From NCBI GenBank assembly GCA_020062665.1, contig JAGUVW010000013.1, positions 62,001 through 126,000 on the forward strand: a stretch of DNA of 64,000 bases, given 5' to 3'. How positions within the stretch are numbered: position 1 is the first letter of the stretch; each line of letters opens with the position of its first letter. The stretch is from Pseudomonadales bacterium. Lineage in GTDB: Bacteria > Pseudomonadota > Gammaproteobacteria > Pseudomonadales > Ketobacteraceae. Shown here in pieces: positions 4,839-61,069 of the stretch. The translations under genes were made by a program, and so were the position numbers. Below the pieces are notes generated by a model. The model was not told the origin of the DNA and did not search any database. It was given only the letters and a program-made list of their open reading frames with translations.

Positions 4839-4944
4839 TGGGTGGAACCTGATGCCATTCCGGACACGCCATGAATCCATCCATGGAGGCTGCACAGCGA
4901 CATCCCTGTCGCTGAGCGTCCGGAATGGCATCAGGTTCCACCCA
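4839..4944 (-). repeat. foldback element A: perfect 27-bp arms, 52-nt conserved core
   Basis: The arms 4839-4865 and 4918-4944 are perfect reverse complements (27 of 27). They enclose a core of exactly 52 nt (4866-4917). Read on the minus strand, the core is 46/52 identical to the core of the element at 58167-58278. It contains the hairpin AGCGACA-GGGA-TGTCGCT (4913-4896) and a second hairpin TCCA-TGGA-TGGA (minus strand). The core motifs are CAGGGATG and CATGGATG. Outer partial pairing (GTCGAG, and GTCCGAG at 4821-4827 with CTCGGAC at 4982-4988) may lengthen the structure. It lies on the sense strand between gph and trpE, about 60 bases before the trpE start. Confidence 0.9.
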
Positions 4945-5248: not shown

Positions 5249-5947
5249 TCATAATAACAATTCACGAAAATCATCCAGCAGCCAGTCCGGGTCGCAGGCG
5301 GCCACAGACTCACCGTGGTTGTAACCGTAAGTCAGGGCTGCGCTGACCATGCCCGCCGCTTTGGCCGCTTCCACGTCGCTGCGGCTGTCGCCCACCATCA
5401 GGCTCGCTTTGGGTTTGGCACCCACCTGCTCGCACACATGCAGCAGGGGCAGCGGATGGGGCTTGCGTTCCGGCAGGCATTCGCCGCCAATTACGCTGCG
5501 AAAAAACGCTGCAATCTGAAACTGCTCCAGCAACGGCGTGGTGAACGGCAGCGGTTTGTTGGTGACAACTGCCAGTGGAATACCCAGACCAGCGAGGCCT
5601 TTCACCACTTCTTTCACCCCCGGATAGAGGCGGGTCTGGCGGCCGTTTTCCTGCTGGTAAATCTGTTTGAACAGGGTCAATGCTTGTGCGTGGGCAGACT
5701 CGTCAATTTGCGCCACGGCAGCAGGATCTGCAGTGCCAGCCAAGGCGCGCCTCACCAGTGTGGCGGCGCCATTGCCCACCCAGCCGCGGACTTTTTCCTC
5801 GCCGGCCGGTGCGCGCCCCAATTGCTCGAGCATGCGATCTACCGCCGCCGCCAGATCGGGGGCGCTGTCCACCAAGGTGCCGTCGAGATCGAAAATGATC
5901 AGTTGCGGCAGGTGGTTGTGGAAGTGGGCGACGAGTTTCGTGAGCAC
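5249..5947 (-). CDS. gph: phosphoglycolate phosphatase (HAD family)
   Basis: Gph (232 residues) dephosphorylates 2-phosphoglycolate, which arises for example from repair of oxidised DNA ends. The HAD motif I nucleophile and general acid are in FDLDGTLVD (Asp20, Asp22), motif II is VVTNKP, and motif III/IV is MVGDSRSDVEAAKAAG near the C-terminus, all in order. The alpha-helical cap domain sits between motifs I and II. The start is a GTG directly abutting the rpe stop codon, so the two are co-transcribed and probably translationally coupled. Rpe-gph adjacency upstream of trpE is the standard arrangement in pseudomonads. Confidence 0.93.
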   Translation of the reverse strand: MLTKLVAHFHNHLPQLIIFDLDGTLVDSAPDLAAAVDRMLEQLGRAPAGEEKVRGWVGNGAATLVRRALAGTADPAAVAQIDESAHAQALTLFKQIYQQENGRQTRLYPGVKEVVKGLAGLGIPLAVVTNKPLPFTTPLLEQFQIAAFFRSVIGGECLPERKPHPLPLLHVCEQVGAKPKASLMVGDSRSDVEAAKAAGMVSAALTYGYNHGESVAACDPDWLLDDFRELLL

Positions 5948-58166: not shown

Positions 58167-58278
58167 GGCCGGGGAAGGCGGGAGGCAGTTCGGAAGGCTC
58201 AGCGACAGGGATGTCGCTGCGCAGCCCCCAGGGATGGGTTTACGGCGTCTTCCGAACTGCCTCCCGCCTTCCCCGGCC
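58167..58278 (+). repeat. foldback element B: perfect 30-bp arms, 52-nt conserved core
   Basis: The arms 58167-58196 and 58249-58278 are perfect reverse complements (30 of 30). The core 58197-58248 is 52 nt. The core holds AGCGACA-GGGA-TGTCGCT (58201-58218) and CCCA-GGGA-TGGG (58227-58238), both presenting CAGGGATG. The core is 46/52 identical to that of element A on the opposite strand, while the arms have no resemblance except a GGA near the core. It starts 20 bases after the argS stop and ends 35 bases before the SPOR gene, on the same strand as both. Confidence 0.92.
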
Positions 58279-60768: not shown

Positions 60769-61069
60769 AACCCTGCCGACGCAAGAACACGGAAGCCCGA
60801 CGAGAAGCCGCTGGTGGGATGATGAGACTGGAACGTTTGCGGCCATGGATGGCCGCGAACGAGCCTACATGGATGTACTCGTGGCGGTTCCAGACTCATC
60901 ATCCCGCCAGCGGCGCCCACTTACCATCTTCACCCTCTCTCCAAAACATGAACCGGTCAGAAAACTCTGCCGCGCGGTCGCTGCGGCGATATAAAACCGT
61001 CATCTCTTTCGCATAGAATGCCGCCGCTTTAGCCTTTGTCTTTTTTTCGACTTTTCCCGGTCTCGCCCA
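60769..61069. other. intergenic region after hslU holding foldback element C
   Basis: About 300 bases. The first half holds the foldback element (60807-60914). The second half is more AT-rich and should carry the promoter of the heme-sensor operon; a TAGAAT box at 61012-61017 is the best -10 candidate, with no clear -35. Confidence 0.45.
60807..60914 (+). repeat. foldback element C: 28-bp arms, 52-nt core
   Basis: The arms 60807-60834 and 60887-60914 match as inverted repeats at 26 of 28 positions; one exception would be a U-G pair. The core 60835-60886 is again exactly 52 nt. Its first hairpin GCGGCCA-TGGA-TGGCCGC (60839-60856) has the same offset as in elements A and B. The second, TACA-TGGA-TGTA (60866-60877), is closed further by CGAG/CTCG. 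Both loops present CATGGATG. Core sequence outside the motifs is diverged from A and B. It lies 38 bases after hslU on the same strand. Confidence 0.88.

Follow-up and report, generated by a model that had tools for sequence, protein, structure and literature searches.

A dispersed YPAL/TwoAYGGAY-type repeat of Gammaproteobacteria with twin candidate CsrA-binding hairpins on long stems whose arms co-evolve

We analyzed three foldback elements in a 64,000-nucleotide stretch of a Pseudomonadales genome (assembly GCA_020062665.1, contig JAGUVW010000013.1, positions 62,001 to 126,000; here called the window). Judged by the homology of their cores, they are copies of a dispersed noncoding repeat of the YPAL/TwoAYGGAY kind, a relative or variant of YPAL rather than YPAL in the strict sense. 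We consider it reasonably probable that the element is a small mobile repeat at gene 3' ends that is transcribed into a twin candidate CsrA-binding hairpin on a long stem. The family itself is already known; its breadth, the unification of several named families, and the co-evolution of its arms are new here.

Element A (4839 to 4944, minus strand; arms of 27 bp, core of 52 nt) has a gph-like open reading frame (ORF; 5249 to 5947, minus strand) on one side and trpE, also on the minus strand, on the other, with the ATG of trpE about 60 nt downstream. The argS stop codon (ORF end, 58146) lies 20 nt ahead of element B (58167 to 58278, plus strand; arms of 30 bp, core of 52 nt), and 36 nt past the element comes a SPOR-domain-like ORF (58314). 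The core of element B (58197 to 58248, plus strand) carries the loop ACAGGGATGT in hairpin 1 and the loop CCAGGGATGG in hairpin 2. Element C (60807 to 60914, plus strand; arms of 28 bp, 26 of them paired, and core of 52 nt) belongs to a different subtype and lies 38 nt past the hslU stop codon (60768). Each element has the orientation of both of its neighboring genes. Recomputing the Watson-Crick pairs of the arms gave 27/27 for A, 30/30 for B, and 26/28 for C, and cores A and B were identical at 46 of 52 positions, the same value as in the preliminary description of these loci. Core C was identical to cores A and B at 17 to 19 of 52 positions when compared position by position; it keeps, as that description had also stated, the twin-hairpin layout at nearly equal offsets, with ANGGA at core positions 11 and 35, the second motif being one position further along than in A and B (11 and 34). 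The folding z-scores of the three elements were −9.9, −12.5, and −10.0 against dinucleotide shuffles, and a search for inverted repeats (24 bp, at most 2 mismatches, 52-nt spacer) returned three matches in the window and none in three mononucleotide shuffles. The reported arm lengths of 27, 30, and 28 bp around 52-nt cores thus hold for the three loci, but the 52 nt is not a fixed rule, since the distance between the arms varies genome-wide from about 48 to 56 nt by subtype; in the same genome-wide comparison, pairing extended past the arms as first delimited in some copies.

A covariance-model scan of the genome had been suggested at the outset as a check on the family, and it yielded many more copies. 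The pattern of two loops, CANGGATG-N10-40-CANGGATG, matched 41 times across the 5.78-Mb genome, and the reversed control pattern did not match at all. The covariance models (A1 and R1) were built from 26 copies of this genome only, and the E values of R1 are rough by design. R1 gave 41 matches in the same genome, about 40 of them convincing, and 71 in its sole congener (G001), which was analyzed at 57 of the 71. Among relatives, 25 of 58 had matches, with a patchy distribution, and in a sample of 370 Gammaproteobacteria, 73 did. The units are about 106 to 140 bp long, and their cores, sorted by eye, fall into at least four subtypes.

Next, we compared the family with named repeats and RNAs. 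The preliminary description had known of no named family with such a rule and had taken cores of a known repeat class as evidence against its proposal; in substance, a known class is what we found. The 168-nt RU-2/YPAL unit, as printed in PMC2759123, contains the family core, with local alignments of 45 to 55 nt, and 131 of 134 elements aligned to this unit with a higher score than each of 50 shuffles of the same element. Furthermore, the Rfam model RF01731 (TwoAYGGAY RNA) had 10 matches in the genome of the window, all on R1 elements and 4 of them over the gathering score of 43 bits, and none in 14 control genomes; its cut-off was passed in G000, G001, G017, G019, and G054. For RF01731, CsrA-type loops and CsrA binding have already been proposed, and the external stem has been called "not well conserved" (PMC4333381). 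Within the window, an Rfam scan at the gathering threshold gave no match, all three elements being below the RF01731 cut-off; element C scored 36.8 bits over its full length (cut-off, 43). Matches to microRNA families, obtained in the window with an E-value threshold, lay far under their cut-offs on both strands and were rejected as artefacts of long hairpins.

The elements share with YPAL/RU-2 a homologous core (CGTCCGCGCCAAGGATGGCGCGG..GAGCCTACATGGATGTATTTACGGCGT), twin hairpins on a long stem, multiple copies, intergenic placement, and the occurrence of empty and filled sites. For YPAL, three reviews (PMC2759123, PMC2229807, and PMC2267715) give 60 intergenic copies in Y. pestis, target duplications, and empty and filled sites. 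YPAL is described as a largely uniform unit of 167 to 168 bp with 60 to 100 copies in Yersinia, whereas the units here are shorter and their arms differ in every old copy; because they do not form an end-to-end uniform unit of about 168 bp, we file them as a relative or variant. RF01731 resembles the elements in its poorly conserved outer stem and its two ANGGA-loop hairpins, which lay inside an outer stem in 132 of 134 copies. It is filed by Rfam as cis-regulatory and has Y before GGA, whereas the elements usually have G or T. The tandem G-A closure outside the arms, a feature from the RF01731 literature, was found in only 11 of 132 copies and was set aside. R1 also picked up YPAL-like copies on Enterobacterales plasmids (32 to 68 bits); as a plasmid query, RU-2 matched 17 plasmids and the window core matched none. 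The consensus of RF02770 (Ysr224, a Yersinia small RNA [sRNA]) is the reverse complement of the family core, and, unlike the elements here, RF02770 models the antisense strand with Yersinia-type arms. One YPAL-like plasmid copy passed RF02770 on the opposite strand (72.4; cut-off, 70), and Ysr224 appears to be a model of the YPAL core read from its antisense strand.

The loops are the constant part of the element. ANGGA occupied both loops in 132 of 134 copies, with a start-to-start spacing of 23 to 25 nt in 129 of these 132, and the hairpin stems vary through compensatory swaps while the ANGGA of the loop stays. The consensus of CsrA ligands selected by SELEX is RUACARGGAUGU, and one CsrA dimer bridges sites 10 to 63 nt apart, with an optimum above 18 nt (PMC7652899). 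The loops of core B fit this consensus, and the elements have the sequence features of a paired CsrA site (GGA in a hairpin loop, the consensus, and two sites 10 to 63 nt apart). From these features, we predict that the two loops are likely docking sites of CsrA/RsmA, a global regulator. SELEX ligands mostly had no more than 4 contiguous pairs (PMC7652899), and candidate binding could be weakened because the stem of hairpin 1 is longer than in those ligands. The genome of the window has a single csrA, and csrA was present in all 44 of the 44 element-bearing genomes tested; CsrA was also found in 35 of 39 element-free genomes, and because it is nearly universal, this co-occurrence weighs little. 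Two element carriers, G029 and G316, had 9 and 8 CsrA-family matches, and G029 also had 64 element matches. The elements resemble CsrB/CsrC and RsmX/Y/Z in presenting GGA in hairpin loops, with CsrA binding proposed here; those RNAs come from sRNA genes at single loci, carry many sites, and are not dispersed, whereas the elements are two-site units repeated across the genome and lack a promoter signal of their own. Our literature search found no paper connecting YPAL with CsrA, and the accessible portion of a paper on Alcanivorax sRNAs, some of them CsrA related (PMC9788540), does not mention these repeats.

We then examined how the arms change. Past the inner 6 bp, arms of different copies compared in register were 32% identical (132 nonredundant copies), and arm pairing within copies was about 93 to 95% Watson-Crick. 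In an alignment of 95 copies taken from relatives, paired bases filled 97.4% of the cells and the covariation score was 0.718 (0.164 for shuffled and at most 0.111 for slid controls); fitting this alignment to the model biases the counts in the model's favor, and the sliding control dropped to 32 to 43% paired. The trpE and hslU sites are also filled in G001, with related cores and completely different arms. Across relatives, we found 24 shared-site comparisons, one of which (L051/L166) joins different core subtypes and may represent an independent insertion. Of the changes in four orthologous pairs between G010 and G014, 10 were double and compensated, 7 were single and passed through G-U, and 1 was of another kind. 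The arms are constrained to pair, free of constraint on their sequence, and they change by drift and compensation.

Recent copies have arms in common. Twelve copies of G115 hardly differ, even in their arms, and in G414, eight copies have common arm ends and differing middles; these common arms rule out the arms as independent inventions. Close pairs in G414 had 22 differences, all doubly compensated and none single, in pairwise counts that are not independent events. The idea of a family with a conserved interior and element-specific arms was therefore borne out, but the arms are not independent of one another: as read from these alignments, they share a common ancestral arm, and their two sides evolve together. 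Mirrored indels occur in two genomes. In G088, CTCTC--CGGGG/CCCCGG--AGAG stands against CTCTCGCCGGGG/CCCCGGCGAGAG, and in G414, one base is inserted in both arms. Because mirrored indels are hard to obtain via separate mutations, we take them as a signature of arm-to-arm template switching, and we infer that template switching in a quasipalindrome causes the mirrored changes. Template switching has been documented for RNA hairpins (PMC8794818); those cases and ours have in common mirrored indels and compensatory changes of several bases in the two arms, and those cases come mainly from rRNA and other RNA genes, whereas ours is a dispersed bacterial repeat.

Scoring arm pairs symmetrically on the ANGGA strand, we counted 98 G-U and 21 A-C (P value = 4 × 10−13; P values are indicative, since kinship among the copies makes them less than fully independent). 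When a transition strikes a G-C or A-U pair, one strand acquires G-U and the other A-C. The bias was also seen at fixed arm positions 7 to 22 (44 G-U versus 7 A-C) and, at the same positions, in copies antisense to both neighbors (9 versus 0). The roughly fivefold excess of G-U over A-C on the ANGGA strand indicates that the GGA strand is the folding strand. The bias may have a cause at the DNA level, such as the folding of single-stranded DNA during mobility, and its persistence in the antisense context favors an explanation that we nonetheless consider unlikely, namely, that the element is a purely selfish MITE/REP-like repeat whose mobilizing enzyme recognizes a folded single-stranded DNA hairpin and whose match to CsrA sites is incidental.

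Gain and loss of copies also bear on this explanation. The argS-SPOR site, which holds element B, is empty in G001, with a spacer of 12 to 14 bp and no arm remnant, and it is also empty in other family members with a readable argS 3' end; the spacers are too diverged for insertion junctions to be placed. Capture of the arms from the host target is ruled out by the empty site, which has neither arm. At most sites, the two congeners have no copies in common when their sets are compared. The empty and filled sites in relatives, which YPAL also shows, and the patchy distribution are consistent with a selfish repeat, as are the nearly random orientation to genes, the recent multiplication of copies with identical arms in G115, the embedding in larger inverted repeats in G115 and G088, and the YPAL target-site duplications of 3 to 26 bp reported in PMC2229807. 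The freely varying arms, however, leave a transposase no terminal sequence apart from a weak preference for A at −1 (69%); the conserved part is the ANGGA loop pair at its spacing, precisely what determines a CsrA site; and same-site copies in diverging genera are still paired long after insertion, which is unexpected for dead insertions.

The copies, with their differing arms, did not show the common terminal sequence of a MITE. Flank similarities between copies of the same genome numbered only six, of which five were artefacts caused by paired elements with a common spacer, and a terminal sequence common to copies was found in G115 and G088 only, where the unit lies inside, and apparently hitchhikes in, a larger inverted repeat. 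In G115 (L236-L242, L264-L267), a larger repeat flanked by the inverted sequences CAGCCTGTCGGACTT ... AAGTCCGACAGGCTG encloses about twelve near-identical copies, a MITE-like unit with the hairpin as cargo; in G088 (L243, L245, L246, L262), copies lie inside another inverted-repeat unit with the ends AAATACGTGTTCCGAATTCC. Oppositely oriented pairs of elements about 65 to 125 bp apart were also observed (L191, 3001 to 3238; L192, 3001 to 3292; L200, 3001 to 3277; L144, 3001 to 3275). Across the flanks of 134 elements, A stands at −1 of the 5' arm in 69% and G directly after the 3' arm in 54%; these bases are possibly part of the true unit end.

With genes called by a home-made hexamer-based caller, 131 of 134 copies were intergenic, and where a stop codon preceded them, the gap was mostly 5 to 50 nt. 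This is the placement ascribed to YPAL, which De Gregorio et al. in 2006 reportedly described as inserting closely past stop codons. Copies occupied 23 convergent and 7 divergent spacers, and the small number of divergent sites ruled out a divergent-promoter element. Promoter-like signals entering the 134 copies were not in excess from either side, which ruled out a promoter-bearing sRNA gene. Relative to the flanking genes, 58 copies were in the sense and 39 in the antisense orientation, a weak bias (P value = 0.07). Because of this weak bias and the lack of a promoter-like signal, transcription may not include the GGA strand in about a third of the copies, and with 39 antisense against 58 sense copies, at least some cannot be ordinary 3' untranslated regions (UTRs). 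The 39 antisense copies are the main weakness of an RNA reading.

In the 9 nt past the 3' arm, the GGA strand had a mean of 1.5 T, with 5 or more T in 3 of 134 copies; the opposite strand had 5 or more in 20 of 134. An intrinsic terminator is ruled out by the missing T-run on the GGA strand. The enrichment between convergent genes would suit a bidirectional terminator or REP-type attenuator with an interior conserved by chance, but this already disfavored alternative is highly improbable, given the GGA strand without a T-run, the minority of copies with one on the opposite strand, and an interior that is sequence specific and homologous across families. We also weighed a role solely as a 3'-end mRNA stabilizer or processing signal, in which the loops matter for folding rather than for CsrA and the long stem either stops 3' exonucleases or is an RNase III cleavage site. 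Placement just past stop codons, extremely stable stems, and pairing that is constrained while the sequence is free agree with such a role, and YPAL RNAs are reported (PMC2229807) to affect the stability of upstream transcripts. We judge it improbable, since it leaves unexplained the invariant ANGGA in both loops at a fixed spacing with a varying stem, and the T counts show that the element is not an intrinsic terminator.

Our preferred explanation remains a mobile repeat transcribed into a CsrA-binding hairpin. Its unit is a long stem capped by two short hairpins, with ANGGA loops about 23 to 25 nt apart on one strand only. Because the copies lie mostly beside gene 3' ends in short spacers, many would be transcribed, either in an operon spacer or in a 3' UTR. 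The folded RNA would then have a rigid stem that holds out two CsrA/RsmA docking sites, most probably for a single CsrA dimer. Locally, the transcript could be protected or destabilized, as reported for YPAL-bearing mRNAs; globally, the roughly 40 to 70 copies per genome might titrate CsrA. The arms would drift and stay complementary by compensatory change, aided by arm-to-arm copying. More tentatively, and as a possibility that we hold to be somewhat doubtful, the repeat, present in about a fifth of the sampled Gammaproteobacteria, may seed dozens of two-site CsrA/RsmA hairpins near gene 3' ends that together form a distributed sponge and regulon, turned over by insertion and with template-switched stems.

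These comparisons unite the YPAL repeats, TwoAYGGAY RNA, and Ysr224 (modeled on the wrong strand) as one widespread repeat, and a testable function follows, namely, two-site CsrA docking at gene ends. The arms offer a natural experiment on the persistence of long perfect RNA stems, with mirrored substitutions and indels within one genome. A single genome may carry dozens of ready-made candidate regulator sites at gene ends. If the two-site docking is real, an insertion can bring a gene under CsrA or enlarge the CsrA sponge, and the fast rewiring of Csr/Rsm regulons would be explained.
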